DNA of 49,460 nt from Methylomonas rivi (lineage in GTDB: Bacteria; Pseudomonadota; Gammaproteobacteria; Methylococcales; Methylomonadaceae): NCBI RefSeq assembly GCF_024505165.1, contig NZ_JANIBK010000018.1:1-49460 (forward strand). The letters are read 5' to 3'. This document shows positions 1,915 to 49,042 of this stretch, piece after piece. The notes beneath the pieces are model-generated. The model had not been told where the DNA came from and searched no databases. It saw nothing but the letters and a program-made list of their open reading frames with translations. How positions within the stretch are numbered: the first letter of the stretch is position 1; each line of letters begins with the position of its first letter. A program made the translations under genes and the position numbers.

Positions 1915-3384
1915 ATGGCCGCCATTCAATGTTTAGCGGTGGAAAACACCATTGTCCGCAAAAAAGCCGGTAGCCAGCAGGTGCTGGTGTTTTTGCTGGC
2001 GGTGGAGAATCTGAGTTTCGATAAACAGGTCGATGTGGCCTGGGCTGGGCCGGATGGCGAATGGCATATGCTGGCCGCCCGGTATTTGGGGCCGCGCGGC
2101 GAGCAACAGGAATATTGGCAGGCACGGCTGGTATTGAACGGTAAATCCGGCCGCGAACCGGCCGCAATTGTCAGTTTCGCCTTGCGTTTGCGCTGCCGGG
2201 ACGGCGAGTTTTGGGATAACAACGGCGGTTGGAATTTTCAAAGCAAGCAGGGCAGCGGCGTTGCGTTGGCGCGCGGTTTGCGGCTACAAAACCTCCACAT
2301 TAAACCGAAGTTGGAAGACGGGCAGCGCTATGTGCAAATCAAGGTGGCGGTCGATCCGGACATGCGCGCCGAGGCGGTGTTATTGCATTGGACCGACGAC
2401 AATTGGCGGCACAGCCGGCAAACCCCATGCCACCGTAGCAAACGCCTGAAACAACGCGGCGCCCAGATATGGACGGCCCGTTTGAAGGCGGAAGACGCGT
2501 TTGCCCTACAGTACAGCATTTGCTGCCGAACCGCGCGGCAAGAGATTTGGGACAATAACGGCGGCAAAAACTATCAGACCGGCCGCGATCCGCTCAAGGT
2601 GATGATTTTAAACCTGCATTGTTATCAGGAGGACAGGCAGGACGACAAGCTGTCGCAAATCGCCAAGGCCATCAACGAACAGGCGGTGGATATCGTTTGC
2701 CTGCAGGAGGTAGCCGAGCACTGGAACAACGGCCATGGCGACTGGGCGTCCAATGCCGCCAACATCATCAACCAGCGTCTGAAACCGGCCATGCATCTTT
2801 ACACGGACTGGTCGCATCTGGGCTTCGACAAATACCGCGAGGGCGTGGCGATTTTAAGCCGTTACCCCTTGCACCATGCCCATTCGCGCTACGTTTCCGA
2901 TAGCCACGACGCCTACAGCATCCATTCCCGCAAAGTGGTGATGGCACAGGTACATGTGCCTTACATGGGGGCCGTCAATGTGTTTTCCGCCCATTTGAGC
3001 TGGTGGGAAGACGGCTTTCAGCAACAGTTCCAGCGCTTGGGCGAATGGGCCGGCGGCTTGCAGGACGATGCCGTCAAAGCCACCTTGTTGTGCGGCGACT
3101 TCAACATTGCCGCCGGCTCTATCGGCTATCGGCAGGTGGTGAACGGCAATCAATACGAAGACCAATATTTGGCCGCCAACCATCGGGGTTTGTTCGAAAA
3201 AATCTTCCGCGTCAACGACCCCCACTGGGGCAATCTGCTGGCGGACGATTACCGTATCGATTACATCTTTATGAATAAGTCCAGCGATTTGAGAGTCACT
3301 TCCGCGCGGGTAATCTTTACCGATTGGGACTACGGGCAAGTGTCCGACCATGTCGGCTATTTGATGACATTCGAACCGAAATAG
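1915..3384 (+). CDS. Tandem starch-binding (CBM21-like) modules fused to an endonuclease/exonuclease/phosphatase domain
   Basis: 489 residues, no signal peptide. Residues 1-115 and about 120-225 are two related beta-rich modules, each ending in the hallmark FWDNNGGWNF or IWDNNGGKNY, a signature of CBM21-type starch/glycogen-binding modules. From about 228 to the end is an EEP-fold hydrolase: NLHCYQ, CLQEV (metal-binding Glu), HLSWW, CGDFN, DYRIDYIF and the terminal SDHVG catalytic Asp-His are all present, so the hydrolase looks active. EEP enzymes cleave phosphodiesters or phosphomonoesters (nucleic acids, inositol phosphates, sphingomyelin). Fused to glycogen-binding modules and lying 3 bases downstream of a GH57 glycogen enzyme, it may act on phosphate groups at glycogen granules; this is inference. 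A nuclease held on glycogen is the alternative. Confidence 0.8.
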   Translation: MAAIQCLAVENTIVRKKAGSQQVLVFLLAVENLSFDKQVDVAWAGPDGEWHMLAARYLGPRGEQQEYWQARLVLNGKSGREPAAIVSFALRLRCRDGEFWDNNGGWNFQSKQGSGVALARGLRLQNLHIKPKLEDGQRYVQIKVAVDPDMRAEAVLLHWTDDNWRHSRQTPCHRSKRLKQRGAQIWTARLKAEDAFALQYSICCRTARQEIWDNNGGKNYQTGRDPLKVMILNLHCYQEDRQDDKLSQIAKAINEQAVDIVCLQEVAEHWNNGHGDWASNAANIINQRLKPAMHLYTDWSHLGFDKYREGVAILSRYPLHHAHSRYVSDSHDAYSIHSRKVVMAQVHVPYMGAVNVFSAHLSWWEDGFQQQFQRLGEWAGGLQDDAVKATLLCGDFNIAAGSIGYRQVVNGNQYEDQYLAANHRGLFEKIFRVNDPHWGNLLADDYRIDYIFMNKSSDLRVTSARVIFTDWDYGQVSDHVGYLMTFEPK

Positions 3385-3416
3385 TTTTCAGGCGCTTTCG
3401 GCGATTAGCCGGTAAG

Positions 3417-3440
3417 AAAATCCCCCTTGTTTCAGGGGGA
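3417..3440 (-). terminator. Rho-independent terminator of the small minus-strand gene
   Basis: TCCCCCT (3421-3427) and AGGGGGA (3434-3440) form a 7-bp stem with a 6-base loop. Read on the minus strand it is followed by TTTTCTT. It lies about 65 bases beyond the stop of the minus-strand gene ending at 3504. On the plus strand there is no T run, so it would not serve the CBM-EEP gene well. Confidence 0.6.
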
Positions 3441-3503
3441 GGGTGGATGTTATCCGCGCCTCAAGGTCGAGGCGCTAAAAATACCGGGCGATGATGGTCC
3501 GTA

Positions 3504-3764
3504 TTAAGCCATTTTTTCAGGCGGGCAGGCTTGCTCCGCGGGCAATGCCGCGCGCAGTTCCTGAATCAGAAAACGTTTCAGGCCGCGGCCCAAGCGTTGC
3601 GCCAAAAGCGTAACGGCTCTTTCTTTGCTGACGAAAGTGGCGGGTTGCCTGCCCTTGCGGTGTTTGGTCAGGGCTTTGCGCGCGGAGGGGCGCAGATAGC
3701 ATTCCGTGCCCGAAGGCAGCGTCGTGTCCAAGTCTCTTAGTAGATGGGGGGTGATTTTATTCAT
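3504..3764 (-). CDS. Small basic hypothetical protein, 86 aa
   Basis: 86 residues, rich in Arg, Lys and Leu, with no signal peptide or membrane segment. I do not recognise the family. The first 45 residues contain a short arginine/lysine-rich stretch (RPSARKALTKHRKGR); the rest is probably helical (RAVTLLAQRLGRGLKRFL). The start is supported by GGAG 7 bases and AAGGAG 14 bases upstream, and a terminator-like hairpin follows the stop, so it looks like a complete single-gene transcription unit. The charge would suit a nucleic-acid-binding or ribosome-associated protein, but nothing specific supports that. Confidence 0.55.
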   Translation of the reverse strand: MNKITPHLLRDLDTTLPSGTECYLRPSARKALTKHRKGRQPATFVSKERAVTLLAQRLGRGLKRFLIQELRAALPAEQACPPEKMA

Positions 3765-39704: not shown

Positions 39705-40277
39705 ATGCAACAACACATAAAAAATTACACCGATAAATTGTCGCGTTCGCTATGCCATGCGGCTATGCAAGATGTTCAGGTACTTGCTAGCGCATTGTTG
39801 GAGGCTTGGGTTTCTGGTCGTTGCATATATTTGTGCGGCAATGGTGGGAGTGCGGGTAACGCGATCCATCTCGCCAATGATTTTATCTACGGCGCGGGTT
39901 TAAACAATGAAGGTGGCTTGCGAGCAGAAGCTTTGAGCGCTAATGCCGCGGTTTTGACTTGTCTTGGTAATGATTTAGGGTACGACAGCATATATGCTGA
40001 ACAGATCAGGATTAAAGGCAACCCCGATGATATTCTGATAGTGCTTTCCGGTAGCGGTAATTCGGCGAATGTGGTAAAGGCGCTTGAAGTAGCTAATCAA
40101 AAAGGCATGAAAACTTTCGCCATACTGGGGTTTAGTGGGGGGCGCTGCAAGGAGATTGCGCAATTTCCAATTCATTTTGAGGTTGACGATATGCAAATCG
40201 CGGAAGATCTGCAGCTTATCGTTGGCCATATATGTATGCAGTGGCTGTGTGATCAAGACCTTGCCGCAAGCAAATAG
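39705..40277 (+). CDS. SIS-domain protein related to phosphoheptose isomerase (GmhA)
   Basis: 190 residues, the length of GmhA. The SIS fold shows CGNGGSAGNAIHLANDF, LTCLGNDLGYDSIYAEQ, VLSGSGNSANV and the end DMQIAEDLQLIVGH. GmhA turns sedoheptulose-7-phosphate into heptose-7-phosphate for LPS or capsule heptose. From memory of E. coli GmhA, its catalytic His near the C terminus falls at a Gln here (EDLQ), so the reaction may differ. First gene of a seven-gene operon of sugar-modifying enzymes; 20 bases before the radical SAM gene. The ribosome-binding site is weak. Confidence 0.82.
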   Translation: MQQHIKNYTDKLSRSLCHAAMQDVQVLASALLEAWVSGRCIYLCGNGGSAGNAIHLANDFIYGAGLNNEGGLRAEALSANAAVLTCLGNDLGYDSIYAEQIRIKGNPDDILIVLSGSGNSANVVKALEVANQKGMKTFAILGFSGGRCKEIAQFPIHFEVDDMQIAEDLQLIVGHICMQWLCDQDLAASK

Positions 40278-40297
40278 ACGTTAAATAAGGATCGACG

Positions 40298-41395
40298 ATG
40301 CAAGATAAATATTCAATTGATAGCCATAAACTCATTTACCACCCCAAGCGGGTCGCACAGTTAATGGATGTGGGCGACGACTGGAATAAGGCTAAATCGG
40401 TTTACCCAATCTATCTTGAGATATCTCCGGTCGGGGCTTGCAATCATCGCTGCCGGTTCTGTGCCGTCGACTATATCGGTTACAAAACCAACATGCTTGA
40501 TGTGGAAATTCTTAAAAGCCGGTTAGAGGAAATGGGGCGCTTGGGAGTTAAAAGCATAATGTACGCGGGCGAAGGCGAACCTATGTTACACAAGCGTATT
40601 CATGAGATAGTCAAGGCTACCAAGGATGCAGGGATCGATGTGTCATTCACAACCAATGCCACGGTGATCACCGAACAATTTGTCGATGAAGCCCTGCCGC
40701 TGGTTTCATGGATCAAGGTATCGATAAATGCTGGAACCGCCGGTACCTACGCGCAAATTCATCAGACGAAAGAGAAAGATTTTCAAAAGGTCATTGATAA
40801 TTTAAAGCGGGCGGTTGCTGCTAAGAGAGAAAACAATCTCGCTTGTGTCTTGGGTGCGCAATCTCTGTTGTTGCCTGAGAATTCAAATGAGATGGGGAAA
40901 CTGGCAGAGTTATGCAGGGATGAGATCGGTTTGGATTATTTGGTCATTAAACCCTATTCGCAACATTTGTTCAGTGAAACCCATCAATACGAAAATATTG
41001 ACTATACGCCGCAATTGGCGATGGCTAAGCAGATGGAGTCGTATAATACCAAGGACTTTAACGTGGTGTTTCGCGGACATACGATGAAGAAGTACACTGA
41101 GTCGGACAGATATCAGAAATGCCACGCCACGCCTTTTTTATGGGGCTACATCATGGCGGATGGCTCCGTCTATGGTTGTAGCGCTTATTTACTGGATAAA
41201 CGCTTTGAATACGGCAATATCAACGAACAGTCTTTTCAGGCCATCTGGGAGGGCGAAAAACGCCAACAAAGTTTCGAATTTATTCGTCACGAACTCGATA
41301 TTAAGGAATGTCGCCGCAATTGCCGCATGGATGAAGTCAACCGTTACCTTCATGCCATGTCGGAAAACAATATCCCTCACGTTAATTTTATTTAA
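40298..41395 (+). CDS. Radical SAM/SPASM enzyme (first of two paralogues)
   Basis: 365 residues. The radical SAM cluster motif CNHRCRFC gives Cys48, Cys52 and Cys55; GEGEP near 91 is the SAM-binding GGE-like motif. A SPASM-like C-terminal part has Cys275, Cys294, Cys338 and Cys342, enough for one auxiliary [4Fe-4S] cluster. Such enzymes carry out radical oxidations, epimerisations or peptide modifications. AAGGATCG precedes the start. Placed between a sugar isomerase-like and a sugar epimerase gene, so a sugar or sugar-nucleotide substrate is likely. Its ends ([12 protein letters not shown] and PHVNFI) match those of the second radical SAM protein at 44916, so the two are duplicates that have diverged. 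Confidence 0.88.
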
Positions 41396-41409
41396 ATCAT
41401 TTATTCGTT

Positions 41410-42399
41410 ATGAAAACACTTGTTACCGGCGGTTGCGGCTTTATTGGAAGCCATCTTGCCGAAATGTTGCTTGCTTCGGGACATGAAGTTGTCATCATTG
41501 ATAGTTTGGCGTGCGGACGTAAGGAAAATATTAAAAACTTTGCAGCGCATCCCAAGCTTGTTTTTCATCAAGCGGACATTTGTGATCGTAATGCCATCAG
41601 GCCTTACTTCGATAACGTCGACTGGGTGTTTCATATGGCCGGCCTGGCGGACATCGTGCCCTCGATCGAACAGCCCGACAGCTACTTTGAGACCAACGTT
41701 AGCGGTACGCTGAATGTTTTACAGTGCGCGTTGGATTCAGGCGTTAAGCGTATGGTCTATGCGGCATCGTCTTCCAGTTACGGTATACCCGATGTTTATC
41801 CCACTCCGGAAACGGCGCCGATTGACCCTCAATATCCCTACGCGCTGACCAAGTATATGGGCGAAGAACTGGTGTTGCATTGGGCCAAAACCTATAAATT
41901 GCCGGCGGTTTCGTTGAGACTTTTTAATGTATACGGCCCCCGGTCCCGAACATCCGGAGCTTATGGCGCGGTTTTTGGCGTATTTCTGGCCCAGAAGCTG
42001 AAAGGCAGTCCTTTTACGGTCGTCGGTGACGGCACCCAAACCAGAGACTTTACTTATGTTACCGATGTTGCCGCGGCGTTTATCAAGGCGGCGCAATCGG
42101 ATGTCAGTGGCGAGGCTATTAATGTCGGTAGCGGAAACCATTACAGCGTTAACCGCTTGGTCGAATTGCTGGGTGGCCCCGTTGTGCATATTCCTAAACG
42201 TCCGGGAGAGCCCGATTGTACTTTTGCCGATACCGGCAAAATTGCTAAATTGCTCGATTGGGCGCCCAAGGTTGCATTTGAACAAGGAGTGCAAAATATG
42301 CTGGATAGCATCCAAAACTGGAACGATGCGCCGGTTTGGGATGCGGCTACTATCGATAAGGCGACTACGACCTGGTTTCGTTATTTGGGGAAAGATTGA
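41410..42399 (+). CDS. NAD-dependent sugar epimerase/dehydratase
   Basis: 329 residues of the extended short-chain dehydrogenase family. NAD-binding GGCGFIGSH is at residues 7-15, DICD near 56, the catalytic Ser in AASSSSYG and the catalytic YALTK; NVYGPR and the nucleotide-sugar segment follow. It resembles UDP-glucose and UDP-GlcNAc 4-epimerases (GalE/WbpP-like) and acts on a nucleotide-linked sugar in the cytoplasm. It lies 14 bases after the radical SAM gene in the same operon. The exact sugar is not known. Confidence 0.88.
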   Translation: MKTLVTGGCGFIGSHLAEMLLASGHEVVIIDSLACGRKENIKNFAAHPKLVFHQADICDRNAIRPYFDNVDWVFHMAGLADIVPSIEQPDSYFETNVSGTLNVLQCALDSGVKRMVYAASSSSYGIPDVYPTPETAPIDPQYPYALTKYMGEELVLHWAKTYKLPAVSLRLFNVYGPRSRTSGAYGAVFGVFLAQKLKGSPFTVVGDGTQTRDFTYVTDVAAAFIKAAQSDVSGEAINVGSGNHYSVNRLVELLGGPVVHIPKRPGEPDCTFADTGKIAKLLDWAPKVAFEQGVQNMLDSIQNWNDAPVWDAATIDKATTTWFRYLGKD

Positions 42400-42462
42400 A
42401 AACAATGCGCTCTAAAATTTATGCTTCGAGTTTTATTCAGTGCCGTTTGTCAGGATTATTTT

Positions 42463-43452
42463 ATGTCGAAAGATGAGCTGAAACTGACCGAACAGCAGTG
42501 GGATCGTCTTGCGTTATTGCGGTCAATGCTACGAATTCGGCGTATTGAAGAAGCTATTGCAGAGCGCTACGCCGAGCAGGAAATGCGTTGTCCTACGCAT
42601 TTGTGTATCGGACAGGAAGCCATTGCGGTTGGCGTATCGGCGGTACTTTCCCGGGACGATGTTGTTTTTAGCAACCATCGCGCGCATGGTCATTATATAG
42701 CCAAGGGTGGCAATGTGAGGGCTTTGATTGCTGAGTTGTATGGACGCTCTACCGGTTGCTGCGGCGGCCGGGGCGGGTCCATGCATCTTATTGATTTGGA
42801 TGTGGGTTTCATGGGGGCTACCCCGATAGTGGGTGGAACGGTACCGTTAGCGGTTGGCTCGGCGTGGGCAGCGTCTTTAAAGGATGAAAAACGGGTCAGC
42901 GTAGTGTTTTTCGGGGATGGTTGCTTTGAAGAGGGTGTTGTCCATGAGTCATTGAACTTTGCCGCCTTGCATAAACTACCGATTCTTTTTGTGTGCGAGA
43001 ATAATGAGTTTTCCGTTTATACGCGAATGTCGGAAAGACAGCCTGACCGGCCGATTTATCGTATAGCGGAAGCGCACGGTATGGCAGCGTATCATGGTGA
43101 CGGCAATGATGTGGAAGAGGTTCTGAGTATTGCCGAAGCGGCCATGGATCGTGCTCGAAATGGAGGCGGCCCGCAATTCATCGAGTTGAGTACTTATCGC
43201 TGGCGAGAACATTGCGGCCCTAATTTCGACGACCATCTCAACTATCGTTCCGAGTCGGAAATCGAGAGCGGCCTTAAGGATTGTCCTATCGCCAATTTCG
43301 CTTCTCGGCTGGAGCTAAGCAATATTTTGACGCAATCGGTTATGGATAGCTTCGAGGCTGAGTTTAGCGAAGAAATTGCCGACGCTTTCGAGTTTGCTCT
43401 TTCCAGTGCCAAACCATCCAGCAAAGAGGCGGGGGAGAGAGTTTATGCCTGA
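42463..43452 (+). CDS. Thiamine-diphosphate-dependent E1 component, alpha subunit
   Basis: 329 residues from ATG 42463 (MSKDELKLTE), with AGGA about 7 bases upstream; an earlier in-frame start at 42421 is less likely. It has the E1-alpha pattern of acetoin/pyruvate/branched-chain dehydrogenases: CIGQEAIAVG, SNHRAHGHYIAKGG (catalytic His), GRGGSMH and the ThDP-Mg motif GDGCFEEG...CENN. With the next gene it forms an alpha2beta2 enzyme that decarboxylates a 2-oxo acid. No E2 or E3 gene is in the window, so the bound acyl or aldehyde unit may go to another acceptor, for example a sugar; that step is inference. Overlaps the beta gene by 8 bases. Confidence 0.88.
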   Translation: MSKDELKLTEQQWDRLALLRSMLRIRRIEEAIAERYAEQEMRCPTHLCIGQEAIAVGVSAVLSRDDVVFSNHRAHGHYIAKGGNVRALIAELYGRSTGCCGGRGGSMHLIDLDVGFMGATPIVGGTVPLAVGSAWAASLKDEKRVSVVFFGDGCFEEGVVHESLNFAALHKLPILFVCENNEFSVYTRMSERQPDRPIYRIAEAHGMAAYHGDGNDVEEVLSIAEAAMDRARNGGGPQFIELSTYRWREHCGPNFDDHLNYRSESEIESGLKDCPIANFASRLELSNILTQSVMDSFEAEFSEEIADAFEFALSSAKPSSKEAGERVYA

Positions 43453-44533
43453 ATCGGGAATGCGGGAAATTACCTATGCGCAAGCCATTCGTGAAGGTCT
43501 GGATCAGGCAATGGAGCAAGATGCCAATGTCATTGTGATCGGTGAGGGGGTGCCCGACCCCAAAGCCATTTTTAACACAACGGCTGAGTTGCGCGAGAAA
43601 TACGGTGCCCGGCGTGTTTTCGATATGCCGCTTTCCGAAAACGGCGTCACGGGTGTTTGCATCGGGGCGGCGTTGTCCGGCATGCGGCCGGTTATGATTC
43701 ATCAGAGAATAGATTTTGCTTTGTTGGCGATGGATCAGTTGGTTAATAATGCCGCCAAATGGCATTACATGTTCGATGGCAAGGCGAGCGTGCCATTGGT
43801 TGTGCGGGTAATCGTCGGTCGTGGCTGGGGGCAGGGCCCCCAGCACTCGCAAAGCTTGCAAGCCATGTTTTCGCTGGTGCCTGGATTGAAAGTCATTATG
43901 CCGACTACCGCCCATGACGCTAAGGGTATGCTGATTTCGGCGATTGAAGACAACAACCCGGTTATGTTTATTGAACACCGCTGGTTACACCAGATAAAGG
44001 ACACTGTGCCGGAAACGTATTATCGCGTTCCGTTGGGGCAGTCCAAAGTGCTGCATGAAGGTGATACCGTAACGGTCGCTGCATTTTCACACATGGCGGT
44101 CGAAGCGCTCATCGCCGCGAAAGCGTTGATGTCCGTTATGGGGATCGCCATTGAAGTTTTGGACATGCGCAGCGTAAGTCCGCTGGATGTGGCCAGTGTC
44201 CTGAGGTCGGTTCGCAAAACCGGCCGATTGATCGTCGCGGATACCGCTTTTCGCACCGGCAGTGTCGCGGGCGAATTGATTACACAAGTCGTGGAGCAAG
44301 CCTTTTCCGCATTAAAACTGCCGCCCGCCCGCATTGCCCTGCCTGATCATCCCATGCCTACCTCGCCATTCATGGCGGAGCATTATTATCCCGGACCGGA
44401 AACTATTGTTGCCGCGGTGGCGGATATGCTCGGCATAGATAAAAATTCGGATGCCTATATTAAATTGACGGGGTTGCTGGTACGCGAAGGGCCGCACGAT
44501 ACACCAAACCCCGGCTTTACAGGTCCTTTCTAA
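43445..44533 (+). CDS. Thiamine-diphosphate-dependent E1 component, beta subunit
   Basis: 362 residues from ATG 43445 with GGGGGAGAG just upstream. Typical E1-beta features: TYAQAIREGLDQAM, GEGV, FDMPLSENGVTGVCIGAAL (the Glu that activates thiamine), QGPQHSQSL and the C-terminal transketolase domain from about 210 (GDTVTVAAFSHM; DMRSVSPLD). In place of the usual QxRN lattice there is a variant HHxRH-like set (KWHYMFDGKASVPLVVR). The last 30 residues (GLLVREGPHDTPNPGFTGPF) extend beyond most E1-beta proteins. Partner of the alpha subunit; part of the sugar operon and not of a catabolic dehydrogenase operon. Confidence 0.88.
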   Translation: MPESGMREITYAQAIREGLDQAMEQDANVIVIGEGVPDPKAIFNTTAELREKYGARRVFDMPLSENGVTGVCIGAALSGMRPVMIHQRIDFALLAMDQLVNNAAKWHYMFDGKASVPLVVRVIVGRGWGQGPQHSQSLQAMFSLVPGLKVIMPTTAHDAKGMLISAIEDNNPVMFIEHRWLHQIKDTVPETYYRVPLGQSKVLHEGDTVTVAAFSHMAVEALIAAKALMSVMGIAIEVLDMRSVSPLDVASVLRSVRKTGRLIVADTAFRTGSVAGELITQVVEQAFSALKLPPARIALPDHPMPTSPFMAEHYYPGPETIVAAVADMLGIDKNSDAYIKLTGLLVREGPHDTPNPGFTGPF

Positions 44534-44577
44534 TTCTAATCTGTAAGATTTAAACAGAACTAAATAGTGGTCAATCA

Positions 44578-44919
44578 ATGATGACGAGTAATCTTTGTTA
44601 TGCCGGCGCGGAAACAATCACGCCCGGTAAGGCTTGGTGCGAAATGTCCGATGCAGCGAGACTTACATGCGTAAATAATACCATGGCCGCCTATGCGGCT
44701 TTTCCAAATACCGTGCTGGTAGCGATCGAGGCCAAGCAGGACGGTCAAGTGATTATCAGGTTGCTCGAACCGGTTTCGGCTGATAAGCGGGGAACTTTAT
44801 TGCTTGATCTGGAGTTTTTTTTAAAGGAATCGATTGATCCGGGGGTGGTCGTTTGGCTGGAGCCGTTTGGTGATCGGAACTCGCTTAGAAATCTGCGTGG
44901 CATTGAGGTGAAATCATGA
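44578..44919 (+). CDS. Small conserved-looking hypothetical protein, 113 aa
   Basis: 113 residues, not recognised. Three Cys lie in the first 31 residues. The second half looks folded: beta strands VLVAIEAKQDGQVIIRLL and TLLLDLEFFLKES, then VVWLEPFGDRNSLRNLRG. The gene sits between the E1 beta gene (44 bases) and the second radical SAM gene, whose start overlaps its stop (ATGA, 44916-44919). The coupling suggests it is a partner of that radical SAM protein or of the E1 enzyme. An ATG one codon later is possible. Confidence 0.65.
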   Translation: MMTSNLCYAGAETITPGKAWCEMSDAARLTCVNNTMAAYAAFPNTVLVAIEAKQDGQVIIRLLEPVSADKRGTLLLDLEFFLKESIDPGVVVWLEPFGDRNSLRNLRGIEVKS

Positions 44920-46055
44920 GTGAAGCAGTGCAAACCCGCGAAGGGGCGTTGATTCTCGATTCTCATAAGCTCTCGTATCACACCGACAGAGTGGAGGCAT
45001 GGGAAGCAGGGGAGCGGATAGCGCCGGTTAGCGTCGATATGTCTTTGACCCGCGCTTGCGGTGCAATGTGTTCGTTTTGCTACGCGATGATGCAGGAATC
45101 GCAGGCCAGAAGCAGCATCAAAACCGTGGATGCGCTCAATTTACTGGACGATTTTTCCGCCATCGGTATACGTAGCGTATCGCTGGTATCGGATGGCGAA
45201 AGTACACTATCCAAGGCCTATGTTCCCTTCATCCAGCATGCGGCGGAATTAGGCATAGACGTGGGAAATGCAACCAACGCTTGGGAATGGGAGCCGGACA
45301 AAATCGAACAGGTATTGCCACACATAACGTGGATACGATTTACGGTTGCGGCCGGTCGGCCGGAAAGCTATGCCAGCATCATGTACAAAGGTCCGGAGCA
45401 TACTGAAGTATTTGATCGGGCGATAAAACATATTCAATATGCGGTCGATTTAAAAAGACGGAATGGGTTATCGGTAACGCTGGGTATTCAAATGGTGTTG
45501 ATGCCGCATTTGAAAGACGAGATCATCCCGTTTGCGCAGCTAGGGTTGGATCTGGGTGTGGATTACGCCGTGATCAAGCACTGTTCGGATGACGAACAGC
45601 ATACTTTGGGGATTGACTACAGCCAATACGACAGCCTTCACGATTTGCTGGTTCAAGCTGAGTCCATGAGTAACGAGCAGACAAAAATCATAGTAAAGTG
45701 GGACAAAATCAAAGATGGTGATAAGCCCTCTTATAAGCGCTTTTACGGCCCGCAGTTTTTGCTGCAAATAAGTGGCAGCGGTCTGGTGGCCCCTTCAGGC
45801 ATGTTTTTTAATGCGCGCTATTCAAAATTACATATTGGAAATTTCACCGAAGAACGCTTTATCGATATCTGGAAGTCCGAACGCTACTGGAGAGCCATGA
45901 ATTATCTGGCTTCTCCGGCTTTCGATGCTCAGACCATGATGGGTACTTTACCTATTCAGCATTATGTAAGTGTCGCGCTAGACAATCACGCCAAAGGCAT
46001 AAGCCGCATTCAGCCTGGTAAAGAACCGAAACCATTGCATGTGAACTTTTTGTAA
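44916..46055 (+). CDS. Radical SAM enzyme, paralogue with a cysteine-free SPASM-like region
   Basis: 379 residues. CGAMCSFC gives Cys48, Cys52 and Cys55, exactly the positions in the first radical SAM protein of the operon; SDGEST near 92 stands where GEGEP is. It shares the same ends (DSHKLSYHTDRV, LHVNFL). Only one other Cys (in KHCSDDE) occurs and the C-terminal SPASM-like region has none, so it cannot hold auxiliary iron-sulfur clusters of the usual kind. It still has the characteristic HIGNFTEERFIDIWKSE block of SPASM proteins. It may have a different radical chemistry or form a pair with its paralogue. Last gene of the tight operon. Confidence 0.85.
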   Translation: MSEAVQTREGALILDSHKLSYHTDRVEAWEAGERIAPVSVDMSLTRACGAMCSFCYAMMQESQARSSIKTVDALNLLDDFSAIGIRSVSLVSDGESTLSKAYVPFIQHAAELGIDVGNATNAWEWEPDKIEQVLPHITWIRFTVAAGRPESYASIMYKGPEHTEVFDRAIKHIQYAVDLKRRNGLSVTLGIQMVLMPHLKDEIIPFAQLGLDLGVDYAVIKHCSDDEQHTLGIDYSQYDSLHDLLVQAESMSNEQTKIIVKWDKIKDGDKPSYKRFYGPQFLLQISGSGLVAPSGMFFNARYSKLHIGNFTEERFIDIWKSERYWRAMNYLASPAFDAQTMMGTLPIQHYVSVALDNHAKGISRIQPGKEPKPLHVNFL

Positions 46056-46327
46056 GTATATCGTTACTACTTTATGCTCTAGGTAATCCAGCCTAATCGA
46101 CTACTTGAGAGAATATTTACGTGTATTTTATTATTGCCATTCGAAATTGGCGTGAGTTTGTAAAGCGGTTCATTGCCAAAATGTCAAGATAATAATAATT
46201 TTTCAAATCAAGCGGAATAGCGAAAGTATTGTTATTAACCGAACGTTATTCATTTCTGGTTGGCACCATGAGATGTCGAAGCTGTGCGGAAGCATAAGGG
46301 CTAAAGAAAACTTTATTCGAGGACTTG
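46056..46327. other. A+T-rich gap
   Basis: 272 bases with no gene; A+T rich in contrast to the preceding operon and leading into the A+T-rich genes after it. It may hold the promoter for the GT-C-like gene, but no convincing pair of boxes was seen. Confidence 0.35.
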
Positions 46328-48346
46328 ATGTTTATTTTAGGGGTAGTATCGTTCTTACAAATTACTTTTATTCCAGGCTATATTGCTATTAGGTTTTTAA
46401 GGCTTGATGGCATTAGCTTAATACAGCGCGCAGTATATATTTTTACATTAAGCCTGTTGATAAATTATATTGTTGTGATGCCTTTGGCGTCGCTTAATAT
46501 ATATTATTCATGGTTGGTATTCTTATTGCTAGCAATTGAATTTATTGTTATCGGTGGCATCTCTTTTAAAGATTGGAAAAGCGGAAAAAATTCCGGATAT
46601 TATGTGCGGTTGGTTGCGGGAGTCAGTTGCGAAAACACATTAAGTGGTTTCGGTATTATTCTAATTTCCATTATTTCACTGCTGCTATTTTGCTATCTTT
46701 TATATAAAAACTTAGGAACTATATTTTTACAGTCCGACATGATGGGGTCTTATAATCCCTGGACATTGGAATTCCTATTAAATAGATTGCCTGATCCTGC
46801 AAATACCATGAGTTATCCTATCCTTATGCCGGCAAATTGGTCTTTAGGATATCTTATTATGCAGAATGAAAATATTCAGTTTTTTAATAAGATGACTTTG
46901 TCGCTATTTCCATTCGTGGTTTCGTTGCTGTTTATAGATTTATCGATAAAGAATAAGAGCTTAATATATTTGCTAGGATTGGTATTCTATTCGATTATTT
47001 TAATTTTATATACTGGCTATTTGTTTGGGGCGGGGACGCTTGATATTCCTGCTGCATCGATTGGCTTTTTGGCATTCTATGCGATTTTGGATGTTTATTT
47101 TACGCGTAGCTCAAATAAAATAGATGGCAAGAGATTGATATTGGTTATTCTGTTTGCGTCTGTATCCGCGCTTATTAAACAAGCAGGTTTGTTTTTACTG
47201 ATTGTAATAATGGCTTGGTTGGTATGGTTCTTATTTGTTGATGGTAAAAATAAGACGAATTATAAGTTTAAGGAAAATTTTATAATATTACTACTATCAA
47301 TGGTGGTTGTATCTGTACTGGTCTTAAGTTGGTATGGATATATTGAATATCAGATATTCCAAGGCCGTTCTTCCTCATCATCTGCTTGGCTTACGAAGGG
47401 GATTCATGAAGGAAGGGATAATTATCAGCGTTTTTTATGGGCGATGAACTTGATATTTCCAATGGCTAAGTCGTGGAAAATTATTGGTGCGATAATTTTT
47501 CTTCTAAGCACTTTAGGGGTCTTTCATGAAAAAAGCCGCTTGGTGTTTCTGTTAATAATTTGCCCTTATTTGTTTATTTGGGTTTTCTATTATAGTTATG
47601 AAATAAGAACGATATCCCCCATTATGCCATTTGTTGCATATTCTGCCGCGTTTGGTGTTTATGTGCTTTTTGAAAAGTGTTTTTTTCGGGTTTTTAATAT
47701 TAAAGAGTTGAGTCAGTCTGCGCAAAAAAGTGATCTATCGAATAGAGTAAATTCGGATGAAAATTGCCAAAAAATCCGGGATTTTTGGGATATAGAATAT
47801 TCAAGTTTGTATTTAAAGCAAATAAATCCTTTCGTCGGCTGTTGTGCTTTTAGTTATCAATTTGCCAACCCTATGAGGTTACTTTTAAAAGTAAACGTTC
47901 ATCCTGGTCTTGCTCTTGGCATGTTTATTTCAGTTTTATTCGCTATTATCATTTTGAACTTTACTTGGTTTAGTTCGGATAAACTACTTTTAAGACAAAG
48001 TAATTTACTGATGACGGTGGGAGAAGCTCCGCAGTTGAATGAGTTTTTGGTTGATTATGTATCAAGGCATGAAATTAAAGGAAAGATTGCATCGCAATAT
48101 GGGTTGATAAGAATTTTCCCTCAGACTAAGCAATATTATTTTCCTCTAAAACTATTGGGTACCTATGATTATTTTAATAGTATTTTGGAGCGTGACGACA
48201 TAACGCATATCATAATAAAAGTAGGTAATGCTTATGGTTATGAATTTGATGGAGATATTATAGCATTAATTATGAGGCGGATTGAAAATAAAGAGTATAC
48301 GTTGCTTTTGCGTGATGACCAGCATTATTTTATTAAGATTAGATGA
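46328..48346 (+). CDS. Polytopic membrane protein, GT-C glycosyltransferase-like
   Basis: 672 residues from ATG 46328 with AGGA 4 bases upstream. About 13 hydrophobic segments spread over the first 460 residues and one more near 545 (LALGMFISVLFAIIILNFTWF), then a soluble C-terminal domain of about 110 residues. The first long external loop has an acidic/aromatic stretch (QSDMMGSYNPWTLEF), the kind of place where GT-C enzymes keep a catalytic Asp. This topology fits lipid-linked sugar transferases (ArnT/PMT-like) acting on the periplasmic face. No closer family was recognised; a polymerase (Wzy-like) is an alternative. Base composition is far more A+T rich than the genes before 46 kb, suggesting recent transfer. 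Confidence 0.65.
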   Translation: MFILGVVSFLQITFIPGYIAIRFLRLDGISLIQRAVYIFTLSLLINYIVVMPLASLNIYYSWLVFLLLAIEFIVIGGISFKDWKSGKNSGYYVRLVAGVSCENTLSGFGIILISIISLLLFCYLLYKNLGTIFLQSDMMGSYNPWTLEFLLNRLPDPANTMSYPILMPANWSLGYLIMQNENIQFFNKMTLSLFPFVVSLLFIDLSIKNKSLIYLLGLVFYSIILILYTGYLFGAGTLDIPAASIGFLAFYAILDVYFTRSSNKIDGKRLILVILFASVSALIKQAGLFLLIVIMAWLVWFLFVDGKNKTNYKFKENFIILLLSMVVVSVLVLSWYGYIEYQIFQGRSSSSSAWLTKGIHEGRDNYQRFLWAMNLIFPMAKSWKIIGAIIFLLSTLGVFHEKSRLVFLLIICPYLFIWVFYYSYEIRTISPIMPFVAYSAAFGVYVLFEKCFFRVFNIKELSQSAQKSDLSNRVNSDENCQKIRDFWDIEYSSLYLKQINPFVGCCAFSYQFANPMRLLLKVNVHPGLALGMFISVLFAIIILNFTWFSSDKLLLRQSNLLMTVGEAPQLNEFLVDYVSRHEIKGKIASQYGLIRIFPQTKQYYFPLKLLGTYDYFNSILERDDITHIIIKVGNAYGYEFDGDIIALIMRRIENKEYTLLLRDDQHYFIKIR

Positions 48347-48367: not shown

Positions 48368-49042
48368 ATGGGTAGCGTTAAAATAGTGCTATTATTTACT
48401 CTTATTATGCTAAGTGGGTGCGATAAGTACGATAAAAAGCATAAGGTAATACTGGAAAAGGGTGTTGTCGCATGGAATCAATGGAGATCGGATAATCCAG
48501 GTATAAAGCCAAACTTAGTAGGAGTAAAATATTATAAGGCAGATTTTAAGGGCTTTGATTTTTCTAATACGGATTTTTCATTTTCAGAATTGCCTTTTGC
48601 CGATTTCACTGGCTCTGATCTTCAAAACACAAATTTTACTAAATCCTATCTTCAAGTTGCAAACTTTAAAAATTGTATGCTTACAGGCTCAAATTTCTAT
48701 AGAGCAATGATGTATGGTGCAAATTTAAATGGTGTAACAGGTAAAAATATTTCCTTTTCCAGGGCCTATTTGGATTCTTCCGATCTGGTGAACTTGAATG
48801 TAGAGAATTCATTTTTTACAAATACATTTCTTGCGGATAGTAACTTATCGGGTTCTACTTTTAGAGGTTCTTTTTTTTATGATACGAATATGAAAAGGAC
48901 TTTTATTGTTAAAGCCCATTTCATAGATGTGGACTTTAAAGATGCAGATCTAAGTGGCAGTTTCATAAAGCAATCAGAATTCACCAACACAAATTTACAG
49001 GCCGCGAGAAGCGGCACAAATTTCATTAATATTGACAAATGA
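48368..49042 (+). CDS. Pentapeptide-repeat lipoprotein
   Basis: 224 residues. A lipoprotein signal is clear: MGSVKIVLLFTLIMLSGC with lipobox LSGC, Cys18 being the modified residue; Asp at +2 hints at inner-membrane retention. From about 55 to 215 the chain is built of pentapeptide repeats, A(D/N)LxX or similar (ADFKG FDFSN TDFSF; ANLNG; SNLSG STFRG; ADLSG), forming a right-handed beta helix. Such proteins serve as binding scaffolds. It lies 21 bases after the GT-C-like gene and 29 before the GT2 gene, so it belongs to the surface polysaccharide locus. Function unknown; A+T rich. Confidence 0.82.
   Translation: MGSVKIVLLFTLIMLSGCDKYDKKHKVILEKGVVAWNQWRSDNPGIKPNLVGVKYYKADFKGFDFSNTDFSFSELPFADFTGSDLQNTNFTKSYLQVANFKNCMLTGSNFYRAMMYGANLNGVTGKNISFSRAYLDSSDLVNLNVENSFFTNTFLADSNLSGSTFRGSFFYDTNMKRTFIVKAHFIDVDFKDADLSGSFIKQSEFTNTNLQAARSGTNFINIDK

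Follow-up and report, generated by a model that had tools for sequence, protein, structure and literature searches.

Seven tightly packed genes at positions 39705-46055 (6.35 kb, + strand) of a Methylomonas rivi contig (NZ_JANIBK010000018.1, C18; the window is the whole 49,460-nucleotide stretch analysed) may be one form of a cassette for the synthesis of a nucleotide-activated sugar that derives from a heptose, bears a two-carbon branch, and serves a surface glycan, a reading to which we give just short of an even chance. In order, they encode a SIS_2 isomerase, a radical S-adenosylmethionine (SAM) enzyme (rSAM1), an epimerase, the alpha and beta subunits of a thiamine diphosphate (ThDP) enzyme of the E1 type, an orphan protein (s113), and a second radical SAM enzyme (rSAM2). 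All seven genes of the closely packed operon described in an earlier, sequence-only reading of this DNA are present on the + strand, and their Pfam domains agree with it. A sugar pathway is well supported. The gene content, its conserved association, the lack of E2 and E3 dehydrogenase components alongside, the distinct E1 features, and the likeness of rSAM1 to DesII are all apparent at the sequence level.

Proposed pathway and known systems

From these features we infer the exact chemistry, that is, the substrate, step order, ketone, donor, and product. The SIS isomerase would convert a ketose phosphate (sedoheptulose-7-phosphate or similar) to an aldose phosphate, which an HldE-like kinase/nucleotidyltransferase (its gene probably lies on the next contig) would convert to a nucleoside diphosphate (NDP) sugar whose configuration would be altered by the epimerase. 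rSAM1 would then abstract a hydrogen from a ring carbon to yield a ketone, via dehydrogenation or radical elimination. As an alpha2beta2 enzyme, E1 would decarboxylate pyruvate or another 2-oxo acid and add the hydroxyethyl carbanion to the ketone, resulting in a branched sugar, which would have nine carbons in the case of a heptose backbone, and rSAM2 together with s113 may perform a further radical step. The carboligation is assigned to E1 because two-subunit E1-like enzymes that branch ketosugars provide a precedent. Deoxygenation by the radical enzymes, as suggested in the sequence-only reading, is possible.

According to one study, E1-type alphaKADH2 enzymes place a two-carbon unit on ketosugars, use pyruvate as donor where tested, and appear specialised for two-carbon branches; they include the two-subunit, E1-like KbDH-alpha/beta of kibdelomycin (PMC12247030). 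Similar two-subunit branching enzymes are described for avilamycin (AviB1/AviB2) and paulomycin (Pau11/Pau12, the same as Plm8/Plm9) (PMC4425429, PMC4802897). As in these systems, the E1 alpha/beta pair of the window lies among sugar genes with no E2 or E3 beside it, a likeness to AviB1/B2, Pau11/12, and KbDH in gene context and putative function. Whereas the alphaKADH2 cases concern antibiotic sugars, the window cassette is found mostly in Gram-negative genomes and combines activation genes of the heptose type with two radical SAM enzymes. The precedent named in the sequence-only reading was YerE, which attaches a two-carbon branch to an NDP-ketosugar in the formation of a surface glycan (yersiniose of the Yersinia O-antigen). 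The idea of two-carbon branching stands, but YerE is a member of the decarboxylase superfamily (a single chain resembling acetohydroxyacid synthase), while the window enzyme is of the E1/transketolase type with two chains, and the AviB1/B2-type enzymes fit better.

Among the matches listed in the open-access literature, there was no pathway joining radical SAM enzymes, heptose or surface-glycan genes, and an E1 pair, in line with the earlier statement that no described pathway has this seven-gene set; differently worded accounts could escape such a search. E1-type branching is already known, and it is the combination, the host range, and the probable backbone for which the open-access literature searched gave no description. 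If the proposal is correct, a pathway distributed across methanotrophs, nitrifiers, iron oxidisers, and others would yield a type of sugar that glycan chemists could seek. It would also bring radical SAM chemistry at the level of the activated sugar together with thiamine-dependent branching, a pairing absent from the accessible text of the cited papers, and would explain the presence of pyruvate dehydrogenase (PDH)-like E1 genes annotated as dehydrogenases within glycan loci.

Distribution and layouts of the cassette

Scanning 84,980 species genomes with a pattern from the rSAM1 alignment yielded 165 relatives, the best 80 of which were examined. These loci were chosen by rSAM1 similarity and are not independent, as several are close relatives, and the family counts, obtained by profile assignment of open reading frames (ORFs), include any family match within a stretch. 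Their named sources comprise several classes of Pseudomonadota, together with Nitrospira, Nitrospina, Magnetococcales, and a small number of other metagenome bins, among which mis-binning is possible. Co-occurrence across genomes, proposed earlier as a check, was found in distant bacteria among these best 80 of 165 relatives. The epimerase family is present in 62 of the 80 loci, a kinase/nucleotidyltransferase family (C2) in 58, the SIS isomerase in 50, and rSAM2 in 36; E1 alpha is found in 45, E1 beta in 42, and the complete pair in 40, with the SIS, C2, and epimerase genes all present in 31 of these 40. The earlier picture of a sugar operon containing an E1 enzyme without E2/E3 therefore holds but is incomplete, as the HldE-like kinase/nucleotidyltransferase (58/80 loci) lay outside its view. 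A chance cluster is rejected, since, among the 41 related loci in which rSAM1 is flanked by 8 kb or more on each side, 30 carry the E1 pair.

Three layouts are common. In the first, the order rSAM1-epimerase-SIS-C2-E1 alpha-E1 beta-(s113)-rSAM2 is varied between loci, the window version beginning with SIS. In the second, rSAM1 occurs with a split transketolase pair (11/80 loci), together with another kind of radical SAM enzyme (c17) in 5 of 11 and a methyltransferase (MTc6) in 8 of 11. In the third, seven loci (L064-L066, L068, L080, L083, and L091) have the order rSAM3-GT9 heptosyltransferase-E1 alpha-E1 beta-rSAM1 without SIS or C2, and the heptosyltransferase-type gene beside the E1 pair and rSAM1 counts in favour of the branched-sugar proposal. 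One of them, L083, also encodes s113 and rSAM2 just upstream. In addition, two loci (L026 and L034) combine rSAM1, SIS, and C2 with B12-type radical SAM genes (family c28, Pfam assignment on L035) and have neither E1 nor transketolase. rSAM1 and the activation genes thus look like a common core, with the thiamine enzyme as an exchangeable modifier.

No locus contains both the E1 pair and the split transketolase pair (0/80; in the 41 well-flanked loci, 30 have the former, 4 the latter, and none both), as expected for alternative two-carbon transferases. Examples of the replacement of E1 by the transketolase subunits TKN/TKC are L098:10118-17397 and L087:1112-10531, where the families c10, c21, and c22 have no or only weak Pfam matches. 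While this substitution fits a two-carbon transfer, it equally fits a different order of events, in which the E1 or split transketolase first builds a ketose phosphate that is isomerised by SIS and activated, with radical SAM modification following at the NDP-sugar stage. Transketolase products are well established as natural substrates of GmhA-type isomerases, and the 11 loci with a transketolase pair and no E1 pair also fit such a route. However, sedoheptulose-7-phosphate is already supplied by the pentose phosphate pathway, a 1-deoxyketose derived from pyruvate would, from established chemistry, not be isomerisable to a normal aldose, and 8 of the 40 E1-pair loci have no SIS or kinase gene in the stretch. 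We therefore regard a thiamine enzyme acting first as rather unlikely.

For the Methylobacter version, a role in flagellin glycosylation was considered and rejected, as the genes upstream in L051 are ribosomal genes, secY, rpoA, dnaB, and alr.

The thiamine diphosphate E1 pair

The separate, neighbouring E1 genes of the window encode an alpha subunit of 329 aa (42463..43452, +; Pfam E1_dh, 1.5e-65) and a beta subunit of 362 aa (43445..44533, +; Transket_pyr, 3.1e-33; Transketolase_C, 9.8e-26). They match solved structures of PDH E1 alpha (1e-50) and E1 beta (8.9e-66), respectively, and the alpha subunit scores below the cut-offs of the PDH E1 alpha equivalogs (309.8 vs. 393.85 bits for PDH_E1_alph_y and 189.9 vs. 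411.35 bits). Four E2 and two E3 queries gave no match in any of the 80 loci at a threshold of 1e-4. E2 was recovered in all 11 control loci (7/7 without the four that were query sources), and the E3 control was weaker, with E3 recovered in four control loci, of which two were query sources. The E1 pair without E2/E3 noted in the sequence-only reading is thereby confirmed, and the adjacent E2/E3 genes in related genomes that it named as evidence to the contrary were not detected in these loci at this threshold.

As references, 15 regions with E1 pairs from plasmids (L011, L101-L105, and L112-L120) were read in context. Eight E2-linked pairs (L104, L113-L115, and L117-L120) and five without E2 (L011, L101, L102, L103, and L105) were included in phylogenetic trees, while L112 (unannotated, with an E2 match, kept as an E2 control) and L116 (fused alpha/beta with E2 adjoining) were left out. 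The 42 cassette pairs comprise the window, L093, and 40 of the 80 loci; L095, L096, and L097 were omitted as duplicates of L084, L065, and L044. E1 proteins with scores of at most 350 bits were excluded, and long E1 ORFs were trimmed to the last 330 (alpha) or 365 (beta) residues. In both trees, one branch parts the eight E2-linked references from the 47 other sequences, with support values of 100/99 (beta) and 100/100 (alpha); both contain several long branches, so that finer placement is unsure and some long-branch joins may be false.

The same division is visible in two short motifs. The alpha loop YRWREHCGP (43195..43221, +) contains an EHCG that is present in 42/42 cassette proteins and 0/8 E2-linked references, with EH[CV]G in 4/5 references without E2. 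The beta subunit ends in FTGPF (44516..44530, +), and a C-terminal [FYW]xGP[FY] is likewise found in 42/42 cassette proteins, 4/5 references without E2, and 0/8 E2-linked references. The EHCG loop and FxGPF tail thus offer a simple sequence test that separates many such E1 enzymes from true dehydrogenases, with L102 as an exception. The ThDP-type GDG..N pattern is retained in 41/42 cassette pairs and the catalytic glutamate pattern in 37/42 beta subunits, the misses (L028, L030, L033, L037, and L045) forming one related group. Two further patterns, R..GH and QHS, were set aside as uneven or lacking specificity.

Four of the references without E2, all from non-Streptomyces plasmids (L011, L102, L103, and L105), have genes for a DegT aminotransferase and sugar-type short-chain dehydrogenase/reductase (SDR) or oxidoreductase genes close by, a setting that counts in favour of the branched-sugar proposal. 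The E1 pair of a Streptomyces griseofuscus plasmid (L101:10998-13044), with a GPY tail and an EHVGP loop, is located beside condensation-domain, acyl carrier protein (ACP), and ketosynthase genes, and this E1-like enzyme possibly works in polyketide or peptide assembly.

These contexts also bear on whether E1 forms a carbon-carbon bond at all. It could instead make an acyl or hydroxyacyl group for a sugar amino or hydroxyl group or for a carrier protein, as would suit both the ACP and condensation-domain genes next to the L101 pair, which has the same tail type, and the DegT aminotransferases near E1 in the other four plasmids. Yet no ACP or acyltransferase is among the identified families that recur in the cassette, and the described E1-like pairs perform carbon-carbon ligation (PMC12247030, PMC4425429, PMC4802897), which makes acyl transfer improbable.

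An ordinary dehydrogenase complex is rejected on gene neighbourhood, alpha loop, beta tail, and trees, and by these features the window pair is judged not to be a conventional dehydrogenase E1. That it is nonetheless an ordinary 2-oxo acid dehydrogenase E1 acting in trans would be consistent with its overall E1 similarity and its PDH-like, below-cut-off scores, and the M. rivi genome does contain two E2 genes elsewhere. One of these (C4), however, adjoins a 950-aa E1 and the other is on C72, and the 80 loci without E2/E3, the differing loop and tail, and the position on the other side of both trees leave this reading very little probability. Within its own genome, only the window E1 alpha matches the short alpha type over the full length.

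The radical SAM enzymes and s113

rSAM1 (40298..41395, +; 365 aa) consists of a Radical_SAM domain (Pfam, 1.6e-19) and a C-terminal domain of the four-cysteine twitch/SPASM type (SPASM, 4.8e-10). Its SAM-cluster cysteines (C48, C52, and C55; 40439..40462, +) and auxiliary-cluster cysteines (C275, C294, C338, and C342; 41120..41323, +) are invariant, all seven being present in 43/43 aligned sequences. In a profile comparison with solved structures, rSAM1 matches DesII (1.2e-10), BlsE (4.5e-10), and, with its C-terminal part, BtrN (2e-4). The predicted structure (predicted local distance difference test, pLDDT, 88.6) has DesII as the best fold match (Z 25.8, root-mean-square deviation 4.0, 341 residues aligned), with SuiB (24.2), SkfB (24.2), and BlsE within two Z units and BtrN at 18.7. 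DesII, a radical SAM ammonia-lyase acting on a thymidine diphosphate sugar, is thus nearest in both profile and fold, at only 15% identity, and rSAM1 falls far below the cut-off of the DesII equivalog TIGR04426 (47.3 vs. 450 bits). The similarity to the radical SAM dehydrogenase BtrN is confined to residues 157-242, which match the C-terminal domain of rSAM1; BtrN is shorter, has four auxiliary cysteines, like rSAM1, and acts on an aminocyclitol. The substrates of DesII, BlsE, and BtrN are small sugar-like molecules and those of SuiB and SkfB are peptides, so the fold alone leaves the substrate of rSAM1 undecided. Profile and fold together place rSAM1 nearest to an enzyme of NDP-sugars, DesII.

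It is very unlikely that rSAM1 and rSAM2 mature peptides or cofactors and have no connection with the sugar genes: many SPASM-type enzymes are indeed peptide maturases, SuiB and SkfB rank near DesII, and the best NCBIfam score (85.5 bits against 380) belongs to a tungsten cofactor maturase, but no short precursor-like gene recurs other than s113, which is present in 10 of the 40 E1-pair loci, rSAM1 is accompanied by an epimerase-family gene in 62/80 loci, and its sequence profile is nearest to DesII and BlsE.

rSAM2 (44916..46055, +; 379 aa; Pfam Radical_SAM, 5.6e-8) is a paralogue of rSAM1 (27% identity); both contain a CxxxCxxC motif and a Radical_SAM domain and end in HVNF(I/L). The SAM-cluster motif of the window rSAM2, CGAMCSFC (45057..45080, +), has its three cysteines conserved in all 40 rows of the rSAM2 alignment, one of which is truncated (L077). 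The Pfam scan gave no SPASM match for rSAM2, and F, S, M, and P occupy the four auxiliary positions in the window protein. All 12 rSAM2 proteins from s113-containing loci have lost the auxiliary cysteines (FSMP in 11 and YAMP in one), while the four cysteines are retained in 27/27 readable rows without s113. s113 therefore accompanies the form of rSAM2 that lacks auxiliary-cluster ligands.

The s113 gene (44578..44919, +) encodes a 113-aa protein, the partner of the short rSAM2, with no match in Pfam or NCBIfam; 12 sequences including the window were aligned, and the structure model (pLDDT 80.9) shows no clear fold. An NFU-like iron-sulfur scaffold was considered and rejected: NFU1 and CnfU reach a Z of 8.0, at the edge of the common-arrangement level, Foldseek gave no hit below 0.001, and profile matching against 10 NFU stretches returned a probability of 0.04 out of 100. 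A fusion of s113 to the long rSAM2 forms was also rejected, with a best E of 0.8 for the s113 profile against 22 long rSAM2 proteins and an N-terminal extension that could not be aligned.

The long rSAM2 proteins share a feature with E1 beta. An FxGP[SFY] motif occurs within the first 140 residues in 18 of the 27 rows that retain auxiliary cysteines and in the truncated L077 row, reading VPNQFTGPS(Y/F)R in the sequences printed (e.g. L051:16359-17750) and resembling the E1 beta tail. The pattern [FY]xGP[FYS] is found in 46/46 E1 beta and 22/42 rSAM2 ORFs and in no ORF of the 23 other families scanned. A fuller version of the proposal, in which a new class of bacterial surface sugar, a nine-carbon branched NDP-sugar, is formed by adding a two-carbon unit from a 2-oxo acid to a keto-heptose whose ketone stems from radical SAM chemistry and not from an SDR dehydratase, E1 and split transketolase are interchangeable, and the FxGPF tail is a docking or gating element imitated by long rSAM2, is speculative and somewhat unlikely as a whole.

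Sugar activation genes and the next contig

The SIS_2 isomerase (39705..40277, +; 190 aa; Pfam SIS_2, 1.4e-23) is a GmhA-like ketose-aldose isomerase whose nearest solved structures are phosphoheptose isomerases (2.1e-25), with 118.9 bits against the gmhA equivalog cut-off of 209.45. The epimerase (41410..42399, +; 329 aa; Pfam Epimerase, 1.3e-63) is a GalE/LegB-like, NAD-dependent SDR epimerase/dehydratase with UDP-glucose 4-epimerases and others as solved relatives, scoring 186.6 bits against the galE cut-off of 262.3. C2 proteins combine CTP_transf_like and PfkB domains in one chain, as seen in L073 and in a gene of the M. rivi genome. In the L073 protein, the nucleotidyltransferase (45-166) precedes the kinase (212-524), an order shared by the M. 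rivi protein and the reverse of HldE, whose profile has the kinase at 6-312 of 475. L073 C2 reaches 163.7 bits for rfaE domain I and 69.7 bits for domain II, both below cut-off, and 179.2 against 521 for the HldE equivalog; the kinase half of the L017 protein resembles a solved heptose 7-phosphate kinase (7.6e-11). Taken together, the SIS isomerase, kinase, and cytidylyltransferase-like domain recall the GmhA-HldE pathway to ADP-heptose, from which the cassette differs by its below-cut-off scores, the reversed domain order, and the additional radical SAM and thiamine enzymes. The HldE-like kinase/nucleotidyltransferase indicates a heptose-type sugar.

No C2 gene is located in the window itself. 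The 475-aa C2 gene of M. rivi (C19:1575-2999) is followed by a nucleotidyltransferase gene at 2999-3685, and the two are 67% and 66% identical, respectively, to the two genes after rSAM2 in L014. The window breaks off within a glycosyltransferase gene, whose Glycos_transf_2 match extends to profile position 120 of 168, and C19 begins within a reading frame whose end encodes a GtrA/DPMS membrane domain, as expected of the missing half of such a gene, so C18 and C19 are probably neighbours. The C2 and nucleotidyltransferase genes on C19 probably complete the pathway. The first two C19 ORFs have no match at 1e-8 in other cassette loci, and the M. rivi kinase/nucleotidyltransferase has no plasmid match at 1e-40. 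Further along, C19 encodes NeuB, a UDP-N-acetylglucosamine 2-epimerase, a nucleotidyltransferase, a hexapeptide transferase, DegT, and an epimerase, a region of the nonulosonic acid type that fits with a surface glycan.

Points against a branched heptose

Several observations weigh against the proposed pathway, which is predicted here from its genes. The scores of the SIS isomerase, epimerase, and kinase below the NCBIfam cut-offs of the named enzymes mean that the sugar may not be a heptose. A radical SAM origin of the ketone is hypothetical: the avilamycin and paulomycin acceptors come from an ordinary 4-ketosugar route, and no radical SAM enzyme is mentioned in the accessible text of those accounts (PMC4425429, PMC4802897). 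The Z scores of the peptide maturases SuiB and SkfB barely separate them from DesII. In addition, 22 of the 80 rSAM1 loci contain no E1 or transketolase subunit (many are on short contigs), and 6 of the 41 well-flanked loci have no E1 beta and no second transketolase subunit, so rSAM1 does not depend on the thiamine enzyme. The E1 motifs are not strictly tied to sugar genes either, as L102 is in a sugar cluster and shows neither the EHCG-type loop nor the FxGPF-type tail, while L101 shares the loop and tail type yet adjoins ACP, condensation, and ketosynthase genes. Finally, at 1e-8 none of the genes directly 3' of the window operon (for a membrane protein, a pentapeptide protein, and a glycosyltransferase) has a counterpart in the other loci.

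Operon structure and genomic context

The gene spacing is as in an operon, ranging from an 8-base overlap (E1 alpha/E1 beta) to a 63-base gap when E1 alpha is taken from 42463, and s113 and rSAM2 overlap by 4 bases. This E1 alpha start is preferred over 42421 because of an upstream AGGA and the lengths of homologues.

The GC content is 0.44-0.52 across the operon vs. 0.52-0.59 over the 9 kb upstream. rSAM1 matches at 1e-60 in 15 of the 37 genomes of the genus, including M. rivi, and the window protein is just 64%-68% identical to the versions in the 14 other genomes, compared to 83% and 76% for its relatives in a metagenome-assembled proteobacterium and a Thiosymbion, respectively. Together with the GC shift, this identity pattern suggests that the cassette was acquired by horizontal transfer and is probably mobile.

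Between the operon and the glycosyltransferase gene, positions 46325-48346 encode a 673-aa protein that appears membrane-like by eye and has no Pfam or NCBIfam match. Adjoining the glycosyltransferase gene, positions 48368-49042 encode a pentapeptide-repeat protein whose start looks, by eye, like that of a lipoprotein.

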